Origin: Spiroplasma endosymbiont of Clivina fossor
GTDB lineage: Bacteria > Bacillota_I > Bacilli_A > Mycoplasmatales > Nriv7
Reading direction: 5' to 3'
Assembly (NCBI RefSeq): GCF_964031115.1
Contig: NZ_OZ035006.1
Location: 310,001-374,000 of the forward strand
Length of the DNA: 64,000 nt
Part shown: one piece after another, positions 12,438 through 39,442 of the stretch
Numbering within the stretch: the first letter of the stretch is position 1
How the letters are laid out: every line of letters begins with the position of its first letter
The notes under the pieces: model-generated
Told to the model about the DNA's origin: nothing
Database searches by the model: none
Seen by the model: the letters and a program-made list of their open reading frames with translations, nothing else
Position numbers and translations under genes: made by a program

Positions 12438-13424
12438 ATGAAATTTTGCAAATGAATAATAGAAAAAAATAACCATTTTATTGAATTAAATCGCACCTCA
12501 TTTTTAATTTTATGACATTGAGGAGCAATTTGATACATTTACAACGGTTATTTAAAAAACATTGTGAGCTATTTATTTTTAGTAGGTTGTATTTTGGTTT
12601 TCCTTTTCAAAATCAGCAATTTAACACAAATTAACAAAGTTATTAATTTCTTAAAAAACTCTCACCATTAAATATTGTTATTGGTTCATTAGGAACTGGA
12701 AAAACTGCCTTTCTAGTATACGCATCAAAATTACTAAAAAAGAAGAAATATCATATCGCATCAACTTTTCCATTACTAGAAACCCAAAAATTAAGTTTAG
12801 GACATATGGGATTATTAGACTTTGATTATCCGGTATTGCCAGACAAAACCTTACTTTTGTGAGATGAAACCAACTTATTTTTAGAAGGAACTGATTGAGA
12901 AAAAAATAATACTAAAAACGAAGAAACCGGTATTCAAGAATATTTCGCTCTGGCACGCCATTTCGGTCATATTGTGCTGGCTAGCGGTCAAAGAGATAAA
13001 CATATTTGAGTTAAAGTTCGTGACATTGCCAATAATGTGATTGTGGGAATTCGTAAAAAACCAGTTAATATTTTTCGTCCTTACTTAAAAGTCATCTATG
13101 GCACCTTTCTTTACAAGCATCGAAGAATATGAACGCTGACGAAACACCTTAATTGATGCTAAAAATAGTAAAAAAGGTCGTCGCATTAAATATCGTGATA
13201 TTTCTGAACTTGATATTTATTTTTTTAAACTAAAAATTCCTCTACCCATACTTAACACTTACAATTCTTTTTACTTAGCGTTTTTAAGAGATTATTTAAA
13301 TTCAAAAGTAAATCCTGACTATGAAGACAAATACTATACTGACACCGCAATTGATTTAGAGGACTTAGAATACTTAAAAATGGATAAATTTAGCAAATTT
13401 TTAAGAAAAATGAAAGAAAAATAA
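12438..13424 (+). pseudogene. Plectrovirus Zot-like/pI assembly ATPase, frameshifted
   Basis: The gene has three frame segments. 12438-12668 encodes an N-terminal part with a hydrophobic segment (IVSYLFLVGCILVFLF). From 12671 another frame carries the P-loop GSLGTGKTA and a Walker B-like LLLWDETNLF, as in Zot/pI morphogenesis ATPases. A further shift near 13110 (extra T in the run before ACAAGC) leads to a C-terminal part ending at TAA 13422-13424. In the phage it would power filament export through the membrane. Two indels disable it here. Confidence 0.8.
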
Positions 13425-13435
13425 CGGTTAACCCT

Positions 13436-13699
13436 GTTTTTAGTAGCGACAATTATTATTTAGACATTAATTAAATTAAATTAAGTTTTATTTAATATTT
13501 TTGTTTCATTATCAGTGTAATTTCAATAACAATCATAATTCAGAAAAAAAATTGCCATTGGTGTAAAATCAAATAAAAACTCAAATATATTATATACAAG
13601 AGTTCGAGCACCTTCTAAAAATTTTAAATAAGGGTTTCTTCGGCGGTTGGACTATTTATCATATTTCACCTCCTTTCTAATGTTGTCGCTACTAAAAAC
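13436..13699. repeat. Inverted-repeat-bounded cassette (17-bp perfect arms)
   Basis: The left arm is GTTTTTAGTAGCGACAA (13436-13452) and the right arm is its exact complement TTGTCGCTACTAAAAAC (13683-13699). It sits between two plectrovirus genes. The 230-bp inside carries one antisense reading frame with a strong ribosome site. Confidence 0.9.
13481..13662 (-). pseudogene. Antisense small protein inside the inverted repeat, frameshifted
   Basis: The site AAAGGAGGTGA lies five bases before ATG (13660-13662), the best ribosome site in the phage block. The frame stops after a few codons. With one base added near 13645 it would read about 60 residues (RRRNPYLKFLEGARTLVYNI, then a hydrophobic FEFLFDFTPMAIFFL). 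It is the only minus-strand gene signal among the plus-strand plectrovirus genes. No family is recognised. Confidence 0.45.
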
Positions 13700-34308: not shown

Positions 34309-35973
34309 ATGAAAAAAATAACTAATTACTCACAATTAAATAAAAAATATGACTTAAATTTTAGCGACAATAATTTTGGTTTTACATGAGAAATCTTTAA
34401 GGAACTAGTTGGCGATGATTGAGCAGAATATTTTACAACGAGGTGTTTTTATCGATTTGTACCTACCGCTAGAATGACCTTTAAAACTTGAAACTGTTTA
34501 GCTTGGGATTTATGAATTTGTTGTAACTTTACAGATACATCCGCTCAAGAAGTACGACGTTATGAAAATACACATCCTGAAACAACAATTGCTGATTTAC
34601 ATAATTTATGTCAATATTTAGAAGAAAAGTATGGCGTTCAAATTGGACCTGAGCACTCTACGGTGACTGGGATAGTTTGAAAATTGAATAAAGAGGGCGG
34701 AGAAATAATTTTTCCTTCCAATCAACGAATAACTTTTATTGGTTATGCCAACGGTAATAGAATTTTTGGAACAGCTGTAAAAGGTTCTAGTTTTTTGTGT
34801 TCACGAACTGACGAAATAATTATGGCAGAAGAAAAAGAAACTTTGAGTGATAAACAATTAATTTATAGATATGAGCGTTTACAAATGTCAATGTTTCGTA
34901 GCAATCGGATTAAAGTTTCTGACAAACCCATAAAAGAACTTTCTTGAACCTTTGTTGATAAAATGACAGGACAACAAGAAACGCGCTACTTATGAAAAAG
35001 TTTTTTTGTCGCCTTCACTTGCAACCCCTATGATAAATATCACCCATTTTATGAAAAATACTGTACGCCATTTTTACCATTAAACGACAAGATAATGAAT
35101 TTATTAAAAGAAACTGGTAAAGTTTGATACGAAAATGAAAAAGAATTTGAGGGTTTAGGAATTTTTGTTTTAAGACTAACATTAGACTCCACTTGAAATA
35201 AATTACCAGAAATTTCAAGAAAAAAAGTAAACCAACTTAAAAAAGATAACCCCGATGAATATGCTATTGTAAAATATGGTTTTGAGTACTCAGACAGTGA
35301 TAGTACTATCTTTCCGTTTCGAAAACATTTAAAATATACACAAAAATATGATTTAAAAGATTTTTATGTTGCCACTATTGATATGTATAAATTTGATTTT
35401 TATAGTATCGGGATTGATTGAGCAACTGGACCAATCGATCATACTGTGCTAAAGTTTTGGGGATTTCAAGAATATAAAAAAACTGAACTTTACGATTCAT
35501 ATTTAATATGTGAGATTGTTGTAACCCCTGAAGATAATTTTTCTGAAAATGAAAAAATTAGTTATCTTGTAGAAGAAATCATGACTTTAAGAGCAAATTT
35601 TTATAATTTTGCTGATGTTATTTTTAATTATGATGATAAGGCAAAAACCGCTATGGAATGAATTAAAACAAAATTAATCGAAGATTATAGTTTTAACATT
35701 CGTACCAGCACAGCCATTAAGCACACAACACCATTAACCAAAGAAGCTGGTTTAACAGACCGCGTTATTTGAATGCGTAATTTGTTTGGATTTGGTAATT
35801 GTCATATAAATTTACAGAATAATCCTTTTACTGCCAAATGCTACGAGGAATTAAGATATGATGAAAAACGCACTAATGTTCCTGACCCAAAAATGTATCT
35901 TGATCCTTATGATGCAGATTTTTATGCGTTATATGCTGTAAGACAGTTTATTCGTGGAAAAAATACTAATTAA
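34309..35973 (+). CDS. Phage terminase large subunit (copy 2)
   Basis: The protein is 554 residues, nearly the same as 5177-6844, with substitutions such as GTAVKG for GTTVKG, YDSYL for YDPYL and RTSTAIKHTTP for RANTAIKHATP. It ends FIRGKNTN instead of FIRGKQNNL. The deviant Walker A, Walker B and RNase H-like Asp motifs are all kept in both copies, which argues that both were under selection. It overlaps the Panacea gene on the other strand by eight bases. It is the packaging motor that would match the portal and capsid genes at 41-48 kb, although it faces the other way. Confidence 0.82.
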
Positions 35974-36436
35974 TTATTATATCCCGATCACTTGGCAAAC
36001 TAATATCAAGTCCGTTTCTTGCTTTTATTCAATATTCAGATTTATGTGCTTCTGCTACAAGAAGCATAGCTGACAATTTTGAATAATCAATTAAAGCTTC
36101 ATCAATTAATTTACAAACAGTTTCATTTTTTAAATCAGGAATTATTTTTTTAGATGTTTTTATTTCAACAATTTTATTATCTCTAAACTTTATTTCTGAA
36201 GACGGAAAATAATTAAAAAATAAACCGTAATCTCTTGTATGATAATAAATTTCTCTTAAAACTGGACCATATACTCATGCTTCAAATTTTTCATCAAACA
36301 ACAATAAACCAGTTTTTTTGTAAAAATATATGTAAGAAAAATACATCAATTTTTGTAATTTAATAGAACTATTAATATTATATTTTTTAGTTATATACTT
36401 TGCTATTGAAAAAATATTTTGTTTACCTAATTTCAT
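35966..36436 (-). CDS. Panacea (DUF4065)-domain protein, likely antitoxin
   Basis: The protein is 156 residues from the ATG at 36434-36436, chosen because AAGGTGG sits six bases before it. The domain is very clear: IKLQKLMYFSYIYFYKKTG, then LLFDEKFEAWVYGPVLREIY with the conserved Trp coming from TGA. This domain is known from SocA/GepA-like proteins and as a versatile antitoxin domain (PanA) that neutralises many unrelated toxins encoded next to it. Here the neighbour is the gene at 36456-37121, 19 bases upstream on the same strand. The antitoxin role is inference from domain and operon. Confidence 0.85.
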
Positions 36437-36455
36437 TTCAACCACCTTCAATCGT

Positions 36456-37121
36456 TTATATTTTACCATCTGAAATCATTTTATCAATTTGCTTTTCTAT
36501 TTCTATTAAAAAATCAGGACTATCTAAAAATATTGTACTCCTTTGACGAAAATTAAATTTTTTGCTTTTATATTTACAACAATCCCCTCCTGTACATGTA
36601 TAAGCGTGCTCATCTGAAAATTTATTATCACTTATTATTATAATTTTATCTTTACCTAATTTAGAGGTTAAATACCCTAATTCATAAATAACATTTATAT
36701 TATTATAACTTGTATTTACAATTGCTAAATCTGCTTGATCCATTTCTTCTTCCAGTTGATTATCTTTTAAACCCGAATAAGGTTCTTCATCAATTCTTAT
36801 TGTTCTTATTCTTTTCTTGTTAAACAAATACTTTTTTATAGAAAAGTAAATTTCATTATTACTTTCAATATATTCCATTGCAAAAAAACATTTTTTATTA
36901 CTTAATAATGAAATAATTTGTTCAAAAATTTTTTGTATATTTTTATTATTTTTTGAAGTTATTTCCACCTTTCTACCTTTTTTGCCAGAATGCAATTTAA
37001 TATATGCGTCTTCATGTGGCAAGTAAATTTGTTTTAAATATTCTCCGAAATTCTCTACATTATAATCTTTAAAATGTTCTAGTAAAAAAATATGTTCTAT
37101 TTCTGTACAAATAATAGTCAC
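36456..37121 (-). CDS. Deoxyribosyltransferase/TIR-like nucleotide-enzyme fold protein, candidate toxin
   Basis: The protein is 221 residues from GTG at 37119-37121, which has AAAGGAG six bases before it; an upstream ATG at 37151 lacks such a site. The C-terminal half fits the nucleoside 2-deoxyribosyltransferase / TIR-like Rossmann pattern: FFAMEYIES, IRIDEEPYSG, then QADLAIVNTSYNNINVIYEL followed by GYLTSKLGKDKII. In that family the Glu before Leu-Gly-Tyr is catalytic. A Cys-rich insert (CTGGDCCKYKSK) follows. The N-terminal 70 residues are unlike anything I know. Pairing with a Panacea gene suggests a toxin acting on nucleotides or NAD; this is inference. Confidence 0.6.
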   Translation of the reverse strand: MTIICTEIEHIFLLEHFKDYNVENFGEYLKQIYLPHEDAYIKLHSGKKGRKVEITSKNNKNIQKIFEQIISLLSNKKCFFAMEYIESNNEIYFSIKKYLFNKKRIRTIRIDEEPYSGLKDNQLEEEMDQADLAIVNTSYNNINVIYELGYLTSKLGKDKIIIISDNKFSDEHAYTCTGGDCCKYKSKKFNFRQRSTIFLDSPDFLIEIEKQIDKMISDGKI

Positions 37122-37372
37122 ATAAATCTCCTTTATTTTATTTAGCAACATTTAAAAAGTTATTATTTTAGAGTACCGACTTTTTGAATCTTTTTTGTTT
37201 TTTAACATCTACCGTTAAATCAATTCTAAACTTAAAATAAATGGGCCCTACGGCCACCCCTTTTCAGGACATAAGTATTTCAACTTATGAACTCTTTACA
37301 GTCATGACTATAAGTTATTTTCATTATAACTTTTTTTATGTTTAAAAGCAAGATTGAGTGAGTCTGGGAGGG
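37122..37372. other. Divergent intergenic region with G+C-rich patch and hairpin
   Basis: There is no gene. A G+C-rich patch lies at 37243-37260 (GGGCCCTACGGCCACCCC). It is followed by a hairpin CATAAGT / ACTTATG at 37270-37289 and the palindrome AGTCATGACT at about 37310. The leader of the Panacea operon must start here; I see no clear promoter for it. Confidence 0.5.
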
Positions 37373-37401
37373 TTGACTTTCACAAAATCTGCGTGTATAA
37401 T
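37373..37401 (+). promoter_or_regulatory. Strong sigma-70-type promoter
   Basis: The -35 box TTGACT (37373-37378) and -10 box TATAAT (37396-37401) have exactly 17 bases between them. The predicted start is near 37408. No start codon with a ribosome site follows for 280 bases. Confidence 0.85.
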
Positions 37402-37407
37402 CTAGTT

Positions 37408-37652
37408 GTTTATTAAATTAAAAAAATTACGGAAGTTCTTTCAATAAAGTCAGGGTCCCCAAGGTCCTGCTAAACGCGGACCCCTAACAGGTTGAAAAGC
37501 GGTGCCGAGATTTTTTGTAAGCTTAATAAAATTCTAGTATATTGACGCTTCGTTTGTGGAAGCAACCCGACCAGCCGATAATTGTCAAGAGTTTATATAT
37601 TCTTTAAATTTCAAAAACTAAAAAGAGACCTTTTTATTAAGGTCTCTTTTTA
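37408..37652 (+). ncRNA. Candidate structured non-coding RNA, about 245 nt, family unknown
   Basis: It runs from the promoter start to a strong terminator (AAAAGAGACC / GGTCTCTTTT, 37621-37650). The 60 bases at 37451-37510 contain 36 G or C (60%) in otherwise very A+T-rich DNA. GGGTCC (37453-37458) can pair with GGACCC (37478-37483). CCTG in that loop (37466-37469) can pair with CAGG outside it (37488-37491), making an H-type pseudoknot. CAGG at 37451-37454 competes for the same CCTG. Further down TTGAC..GTCAA (37542-37546, 37584-37588) encloses hairpin GCTTC-7-GAAGC. It could be a free RNA or a terminator-controlled leader of the gene at 37688. It does not match RNase P, tmRNA or SRP RNA. 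Confidence 0.65.
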
Positions 37653-37687
37653 GCCCAAATTAATTAATTTTTTGAGGAGTTATTTAA

Positions 37688-38005
37688 ATGTCAAAAAAAA
37701 ATGAATTACTACATGTAGGTATATTAATCACTTTAATAGTATTTACTTTTGTAGGAATAATTTTAGGAATAGTAGCTTATAGCAGAAGTAACAAATACTT
37801 TCTAAAATCTAATGGTGAGATAGTATATTGTGGAAGTACCATATGAAAACAGATAGGTAGAGACAATAAAGAAATGTATTTAATGTGCTCAAATAAAGAT
37901 GAAAAAAAGGAAAATGATAAAATACCCGGTTCTTTGATGGAAAAAGTAGAGATATGAGACGGCAAGTATGAAGAGGGGTATTTTAATAATCAAAAAAGAG
38001 ACTAA
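37688..38005 (+). CDS. Small membrane-anchored protein, unknown function
   Basis: The protein is 105 residues behind GAGGAG. One membrane segment lies near the N-terminus (VGILITLIVFTFVGIILGIV), then a hydrophilic, mostly outward-facing or cytoplasmic domain with two Cys (VYCGST, LMCSNKD). No family is recognised. It follows the structured RNA terminator by 36 bases and has its own terminator. It could be a superinfection-exclusion type phage protein by size and layout, but nothing proves that. Confidence 0.65.
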
Positions 38006-38023
38006 TTTAATTAGTCTCTTTTA
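37994..38023 (+). terminator. Rho-independent terminator after the small membrane protein
   Basis: The stem is AAGAGACTAAT / ATTAGTCTCTT with a 3-base loop and T tail. It overlaps the stop codon. Confidence 0.85.
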
Positions 38024-38121
38024 CTTTATATTTACTTTATAATTCTAAATTAACATAAGAACTTATTTTATCATTAAATAAGCGTATATTATTTATTTTA
38101 ATTAATGTGTGATTTTGTTTC

Positions 38122-39442
38122 GAGCCTGTCCAAAATTCTGTGTCTCGATAATTCATTCTGAATTATACTTAAAAGAAGGAGAACAGAAAATGACAAAAAA
38201 AATAAAAAAAGAACCTGACGCAATTGATAAAGTTGTTGATTATTTTTTAGAAAATATTGATAATCCACAAGATTTATTTAAAGGCAATACTATTTTTCAG
38301 GAATTTACCAAAAAATTAACTGAACGAATGTTAAATACGGAAATTAAAGATTATCTTGAAACTGATGAGAATCATAATAAAAGAAATGGCAACACACAAA
38401 AAACCATTATTACTAAAAATGGTTCAATCGCAATTGATGTACCAAGAGATCGAAATAGTACTTTTGAACCAGTAATTATTCCAAAAAGACAAAGAAGATT
38501 TGATAACTTTGATCAAAAAGTAATTTCTTTATATGCAAGAGGAATGACAATTTCTGATATCAAAGCACAATTGCAAGAATTCTATCACGGAGCAGAAATT
38601 TCAGAAAGTTTAATTAGTCAAATAACTGATGATGTTATTGAAGAAGTTAAAATGTGACAAACTAAACCTTTAGAGAAGATTTATCCGATTGTTTATTTTG
38701 ATTGTATTGTTGTTAAAGTAAAGCAAGATAAACGAATAATAAATAAAGCAGTTTATCTTGCCTTAGGAATTAATTTAGATGGTTTAAAAGATATTTTAGG
38801 AATGTGAATTAGTGAGAATGAGGGAGCCAAATTTTGACTTAATAATCTTACGGAAATGAAAAATCGTGGGTTACAAGATATTCTTGTTGCTTGTAGTGAT
38901 AATTTAACTGGGATGTCTGATGCAATAGAAGCTGTTTTCCCAAAAACACAGCATCAATTATGCATTGTTCATCAAATTCGCAATAGTTTAAAATTTGTTC
39001 CTTACAAAGATCGCAAACTTGTAGCTAATGATTTAAAATCAATTTATACAGCAATTAATGAAGAAATAGCGTTAATTGCTTTAGATCATTTTTCAGAAAA
39101 ATGAAATAAAAAGTATCCACAAATTACTAAATCATGAAAAAATAACTGAAATAATTTAATAATTTTTCTTGAATATCCTCAGGAATTTAGAAGAATTATT
39201 TACACAACTAATGCGATTGAATCTGTTAATAGTCAATTAAGAAAAGTCATTAAGAATAAAAAGATTTTTCCTAATGACGCATCAGTTTCTAAAATATTTT
39301 ATTTAGCATTTCAAAATATGGTTAAGAAATGAACGATGCCAATTCAAAATTGGGGTAGTGCAATTTCACATTTAATGATAAAATTTGAGGACAGAGTGAA
39401 TTTAAGTTAATTACTTAGAGACACAGTTAATTGTACAGTCCC
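38122..39442 (+). mobile_element. IS256-family element, copy 3 (1321 bp)
   Basis: An 8-bp duplication TTTGTTTC lies at 38114-38121 and 39443-39450. It differs from copy 2 at about one base (GTTTCTAAA against GTTTTTAAA), which indicates recent transposition. Confidence 0.95.
38190..39410 (+). CDS. IS256-family transposase, intact
   Basis: The protein is 406 residues. It matches the protein at 16436 except Ser for Phe in ...NDASVSKIF. All three catalytic motifs are present. Confidence 0.95.

Follow-up and report, generated by a model that had tools for sequence, protein, structure and literature searches.

A predicted rod-shaped noncoding RNA carried by tailed phages and conjugative plasmids of Spiroplasma

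Overview

A stretch of about 213 letters between two phage genes of a Spiroplasma endosymbiont becomes a single long RNA hairpin when folded. Comparison of its copies places this element in an RNA family found on tailed phages of Spiroplasma, usually close to the terminase gene terL, and on conjugative plasmids. Homology, fold, covariation and an RNA-type wobble bias argue for this assignment at the level of sequence, together with absence from Rfam. The DNA analysed, hereafter the window, is the 64,000-nt stretch at positions 310,001-374,000 of the forward strand of NZ_OZ035006.1, from the Spiroplasma endosymbiont of Clivina fossor. With about even confidence, the element can be read as a noncoding, plus-strand rod RNA of mobile elements that acts in trans by binding a candidate protein partner. 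An earlier note on this DNA had proposed a structured functional RNA of the phage island at this place. Its presence is borne out by homologues in many phages and plasmids, by covarying pairs and by the wobble bias; its limits and fold have been redrawn.

Limits and stability of the fold

The RNA unit is an unbranched rod on the plus strand at 37362-37577 of the window. Its minimum free energy is -74.9 kcal/mol (z = -6.06), no shuffled sequence being as stable; an independent shuffler gave z = -6.5, and relatives of the RNA range from -4.6 to -8.6. The structured transcript that had been proposed to start from the TATAAT is not unusually stable: without its terminator it reaches a z of only -0.8 (37408-37625), or -0.4 when taken as 37408-37580, and z = -3.6 is attained only once the terminator is included. 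A significant fold appears when the start is moved about 45 bases upstream, and the significant unit is 37362-37577. The G+C-rich island at 37451-37510 was rightly noticed, with a measured 57-63% G+C where the surrounding DNA is mostly at about 20%. Likewise, the region was rightly taken to be noncoding, and no conserved reading frame was found in it.

Three other identities were considered for this stretch. A leader peptide in the 5' arm (TTG GGC GAG CGG TTG ...) was rejected by eye, its frame not being kept between copies, and a search for tRNA and tmRNA found none. A mobile MITE-like element is ruled out by the terminal repeats, because these are non-complementary at the conserved GA/GA.

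Anatomy and covariation of the rod

The rod is closed by a helix whose 5' arm, CUGG-GA-GGGUUG-a-CUUUCACAAA (37364-37386), pairs with the 3' arm, UUUGUGGAAG-CAACCC-GA-CCAG (37553-37574), a geometry predicted independently in 24 diverged copies. Within this helix, 37368-37369 face 37569-37570 as a tandem G·A/G·A step, and the resulting 2x2 loop is found also in the g25/plasmid, L111 and f5 types of the RNA as well as in L084, L086 and L088. Above the closing helix follow, in order along the rod, an upper closing helix, in which GCGU..AUA..CUAG pairs with CUAG..UAU..ACGC, and an A-tract helix termed P2; the 5' strands of the two occupy 37391-37429 and pair with 37507-37549. On the 3' side, the rod model has a G+C-rich internal loop, GCGGUGCC, at 37499-37506. 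Next comes P3, in which UUUCAAU (37439-37445) pairs with GUUGAAA (37491-37497) and of which UUCAA/UUGAA occurs in all three main families, then P4, and finally P5 with its apical pentaloop (37463-37482; GGUCC-u-GC, UAAAC at 37471-37475, GC-GGACC), the loop having the form UNAAC. Folding of the single sequence draws P4 and P5 as AGGG/CCCU and GUCC/GGAC; GGUCC/GGACC is the register of P5 that matches the homologues. There are no branch points in the predictions from single or aligned sequences, and what had been drawn as a second domain with nested stems (37542-37588) is the 3' arm of the closing helix, which pairs with 37364-37405 and not locally.

For 24 full-length copies, RNAalifold returned the same unbranched rod, closing helix included, and 98.2% of the cells in this alignment pair. 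Changes on both sides were counted in 21 cells, where shuffles gave 5.0 ± 1.7 and slid structures 0-4, so that for the rod the homologues do conserve the stems by compensating changes, as the earlier note had expected of a functional RNA. The count of pairs with two-sided changes is less distinctive (5 against 3.1, reached by 17 of 500 shuffles), and that of further pair types does not stand out from shuffles. Around the UNAAC loop, pairs 42-112, 74-82 and 75-81 change on both sides among the 16 copies of the f5 type, where the compensatory apical changes are GC-AU and UA-CG. The apical pairs of L111 are replaced relative to those of the window and g25 (ACCUCC/GGAGGU and AC/GU). An H-type pseudoknot had also been suggested here, formed by 37453-37458 with 37478-37483 and by 37466-37469 with 37488-37491, along with competing pairings that would allow switching. 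The change G37469A in L039 breaks its short stem and meets no compensating change, while diverged homologues show a nested alternative that has compensatory changes, as in L111; a switching pseudoknot is not supported.

Distribution among phages and plasmids

This genome has eight near-identical copies; G001 contributes one more, and G002 (Spiroplasma endosymbiont of Nebria riversi) another two. Among them, conservation starts abruptly at TCTGGG and stops at about 37576. Related phages of other Spiroplasma groups were traced through their terL homologues, and a diverged RNA was noticed first by direct inspection of the L111 sequence, then in the g25 genomes. Model R1, built solely from the L111 and g25 copies, found matches in 11 of 320 genomes and recognised the window's core at 41.5 bits. 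Model R2, full-length and built solely from the copies of other genomes, matches 37363-37574 at 54.3 bits (E 9.4e-9 per genome); the match is clear with filters off over 36500-38500 and is missed with default filters on the whole window. A sequence profile free of structure gave E = 4.9e-8 for the window. Over 59 genomes, R2 matched in the window's genus alone, and a class-wide search of 395 genomes gave matches in just two Spiroplasma genomes, both already known as carriers. BLAST of the window's copy against phages and plasmids returned chance matches only, the 16 occurrences of an exact 16-mer in viral contigs were judged to be chance, and a terminase query found no relative in viral contigs.

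The RNA is present on 19 plasmid records from S. citri, S. poulsonii, S. kunkelii and S. phoeniceum. In 18 the match spans most of the RNA, in one it is a truncated copy alone, and none of the records annotates it. The carriers include pSci2, pSKU226, pSPh387 and the sHy plasmid. Among S. citri strains, the cultured GII3 harbours pSci plasmids, and strain 44 is free of plasmids (PMC4392738). On conjugative plasmids the RNA usually comes after a gene of HTH or nuclease-like type; the sHy plasmid has a divergent gene in front of it. In pSci1 (L147 6005-6074), the inner part of the RNA has been deleted between direct repeats, TTTTTTTAAATTT, and the closing helix is left. Because of this loss, the RNA is either not needed for the upkeep of pSci1 or supplied in trans by sister plasmids. 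As a separate observation, a tiny reading frame of about 30 codons with a Shine-Dalgarno sequence directly follows the RNA on one conjugative plasmid (L144 12244-12350), and L143 has a similar start at about 13500.

More distant members came from weaker matches. R2 detected L086 and L103 as weak relatives, L103 being one of 6 to 23 matches per genome (fragments included) in five f5 genomes, where the copies sit before the first gene of the late operon. Searching by nhmmer with the L086 element, together with a scan for the GA/GA step, added L081-L085 and L088, each of which adjoins a terL homologue with 22-28% identity to that of the window. Membership of L081-L088 and L103 is based on matches of about 30 bits or less, with a GA/GA rod in some. 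The candidate L087 155-352, at 36 bits and without a GA/GA step, was left out of the count.

In the window, terL (34309-35973, plus strand) belongs to the same prophage and has a PHROG terminase match, weak for this copy; Pfam Terminase_3 scored just below its cut-off on a g25 homologue, and homologues of terL occur in 27 of 298 genomes of the order. The gene lies 1.4 kb from the RNA in the window and within a few hundred bases of it in g25 phages and at most loci of very distant terL homologues, and no small terminase gene was recognised beside it. This closeness would suit an RNA that is part of the phage DNA-packaging motor, binding the portal or the terminase in the manner of phi29 pRNA (RF00044). 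The likeness extends to being a phage RNA with paired ends that is coded near packaging genes in many members. However, the rod RNA has neither a match to the pRNA family nor a three-way junction or interlocking loops, it is accompanied by a full-size terL that, on inspection of its sequence, seems to retain a nuclease-like motif, and the f5 copies precede the late operon instead of lying beside terL. Conjugative plasmids carry the RNA without adjoining phage genes, and this speaks against a role in the virion only. Since the RNA is often close to terL, a packaging RNA stays under consideration, as an unlikely explanation.

Neighbourhood and relation to downstream genes

The gene order of the prophage is terL, accessory genes (SocA/Panacea-like, and TIR-like in some copies), the RNA, a small membrane protein, and convergent tail and head genes. 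The membrane-protein gene (37688-38005, plus strand, 105 aa) is variable between copies, its product has no Pfam match, and a homologue is found right after terL in f5 phages. The flanks also vary among copies, and the ribosome-binding site is kept. Between the RNA and this gene lies an intrinsic terminator (37618-37653, plus strand) with a near-perfect hairpin, a 15-bp stem and a T run. It had rightly been described as strong, and it is retained, with altered loops, in the other 10 copies of the window's lineage.

Given this arrangement, the nascent RNA could act in cis as a leader or antiterminator that sets read-through of 37618-37653 into the membrane-protein gene. RNA, terminator, Shine-Dalgarno sequence and gene stand in series in 10 further copies, no promoter is visible between terminator and gene, and in L111 and L129 the RNA directly precedes a membrane-protein gene. 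Yet what follows the RNA in g25 phages and plasmids is a lipoprotein gene, an antisense gene or Shedu, at the L08x loci the RNA runs opposite to terL, and no conserved antiterminator or alternative pairing was found. The terminator is kept in the window's lineage. The placement of the RNA changes with lineage: it can follow terL or a plasmid gene, precede the late operon or a membrane-protein gene, or stand divergent from terL. No conserved association with one downstream gene or pathway was found, the next genes differing between lineages. Variable position and neighbours therefore favour a free RNA over a leader for one gene, and a general cis leader appears quite unlikely. A riboswitch-like leader of the membrane protein at 37688, the other role that had been offered, is for the same reason of differing placement in relatives not supported as a general role. 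In the window's lineage, a local effect on the membrane-protein gene is possible, since this gene lies downstream of RNA and terminator and no separate promoter for it is visible.

At 35966-37151 on the minus strand of the window, a SocA/Panacea-domain gene overlaps a gene with a weak TIR-like (CAP12/Pycsar) match; the same slot in other prophage copies holds a different Panacea-domain gene and partner, which suggests, from sequence, a swappable toxin-antitoxin or defence pair. Just beyond the RNA, about 24 nt at 37577-37603 are missing from 7 of the 11 copies of the window's lineage. The first part of this segment matches, with one or two changes, a small ORF present at many places in G000-G004 and likely derived from a plectrovirus, and the segment is possibly a trace of recombination in the 3' flank of the RNA. 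At three loci (L032 8130-8160, and L059 and L062 at about 4650), sequence beside plectrovirus-like genes starts exactly at the 5' boundary of the RNA (GAGTC(TGGG)|CGCATAAAG), as if this boundary were a preferred junction. Close to the beginning of the small membrane-protein gene, the copies L031, L036 and L037 have G runs of unequal length, as phase-variable genes do, and a similar G run is inserted in the apical part of the RNA in L040. A transposase-like gene, presumably of the IS256 family, lies between the membrane-protein gene and the tail gene at 38109-39410.

The promoter-like element and the coding strand

The earlier note had described TTGACT-17-TATAAT (37373-37401, plus strand) as a perfect promoter. 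It is indeed the best match of the region, with 11 of 12 positions, but its hexamers lie inside the 5' arm of the rod: TTGACT, the "-35", pairs with 37559-37565, and TATAAT sits in the upper closing helix. A transcript started from TATAAT would be without the 5' arm, whose changes covary with those of the 3' arm. Because of this covariation, a helix that matters in RNA requires a transcript with both arms. Such a rod-spanning plus-strand RNA would begin upstream of the GGGCGAGC motif. The element aligns with TTGATT-17-TGATAAAAT in the g25/plasmid copies. It is not family-wide, because the L111 and f5 forms have no such element inside the rod; the L111 type has a promoter-like sequence upstream of the rod. 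The case shows that a consensus promoter within a folded arm can mislead annotation by eye.

A promoter held in one arm of a hairpin raises the alternative that the element works as folded single-stranded DNA with its -35 and -10 in that arm, like Frpo, a folded single-stranded DNA promoter, or sso, a single-strand origin; it would serve while the mobile element is in single-stranded form. In its favour, TTGAc/t-17-TAtAAT is kept within the arm in both the window and g25/plasmid families, the element occurs on conjugative plasmids, and L033 and L034 retain TATAAT although both have lost part of the 5' strand (37401-37413) of the helix. The wobble pairs of these very arms point the other way. 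In the closing arms, parsimony on 33 copies found that Watson-Crick pairs had become G·U 14 times and A·C 4 times (two-sided p = 0.03), or 17 and 5 times when a hand count of the window's family is included (p = 0.017). This excess, a modest bias, fits a plus-strand RNA, and therefore speaks against a DNA hairpin or an RNA of the opposite strand, neither of which would favour G·U on the plus strand. In addition, the L111 and f5 rods are without the promoter, and the hosts of the element include tailed phages, so a role as single-stranded DNA is improbable. The apical helices behave oppositely, with no G·U and six A·C changes, mostly in single copies, their few changes being A·C and other mismatches; in f5, two G·U pairs are kept in 15 of 16 copies.

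Comparison with known RNAs

The family is absent from Rfam. No family of Rfam 15 reached its gathering score for the window or the relatives, and a search of the window's stretch at E<=10 gave no family for it, pRNA not being among the matches at that level. The significant match to a known RNA family that the earlier note had named as refuting thus did not turn up. Several known systems are nevertheless similar in part. Lambda pR'-6S RNA-tR' and HK022 put are leader RNAs that control read-through of terminators, and the window's lineage likewise has a promoter-like element, a leader of about 200 nt, a terminator and a small membrane-protein gene in series. The rod RNA differs from them in its conserved fold and loop and its varying positions, and no such gene follows it in other lineages. 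Bacterial 6S RNA (RF00013) is also about 200 nt and rod-like, but the rod RNA has no match to its model and no large central bubble is predicted; moreover, it resides on mobile elements. GOLLD, ROOL and HEARO are large or mobile-element noncoding RNAs whose function was long unclear. Like them, the rod RNA is a structured RNA spread by phages or mobile elements; it is smaller, unbranched and without an Rfam match. Features of a ToxI-like type III toxin-antitoxin RNA were not seen, as the RNA is a single copy with no tandem pseudoknot repeats and the protein encoded downstream is the small membrane protein lacking a Pfam match.

On the plasmid pSci2, short repeats at about 74-207 are followed by a gene that we take to be pF, and the RNA element is at 13224-13439. 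For the S. citri pSci plasmids, an Inverted Repeat Region (IRR) upstream of pF has been described, with proposed replication or transfer signals (Saillard et al., PMC2386487). The IRR and the rod RNA are alike in being inverted repeats on the same plasmids, but, as far as the accessible part of that paper goes, they are different regions, and the rod RNA element is not mentioned in that part. The accessible literature on plasmids, prophages and small or noncoding RNAs of Spiroplasma yielded neither a description of the element nor any noncoding RNA of those plasmids and prophages.

Proposed role and significance

A decoy or immunity RNA directed against phage or host defence (a 6S-like polymerase decoy, superinfection immunity or anti-defence) is very improbable: the RNA is indeed common to phages and plasmids, present in high copy and frequently next to cargo of an accessory or defence-like kind (Shedu in pSKU226; SocA/Panacea and TIR-like genes in the window), but it has no 6S, CRISPR-repeat or other Rfam similarity, and its position beside cargo may just mark where insertions are tolerated.

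In the preferred reading, 37362-37577 would be transcribed as one whole, and the rod RNA would then act in trans via a protein partner. That partner would probably be host machinery, because plasmids without adjoining phage genes keep the RNA too. In the window's lineage, the same transcript, reading through the terminator, may double as a leader of the membrane-protein gene. A more specific version, offered tentatively, is a class of trans-acting rod RNAs, defined by the tandem GA base and the UNAAC loop, that would seize a host machine such as RNA polymerase or a defence nuclease.

If this reading is true, the rod RNA would be an RNA-based tool of mobile elements to which known RNA families offer no parallel. 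Two simple signatures, the GA/GA base and the UNAAC loop, can be used to look for further members. Phages and plasmids reshape the genomes of Spiroplasma, a genus of insect symbionts, male-killers and plant pathogens, and an RNA common to both kinds of element would provide a handle on their maintenance, packaging, transfer or protection.
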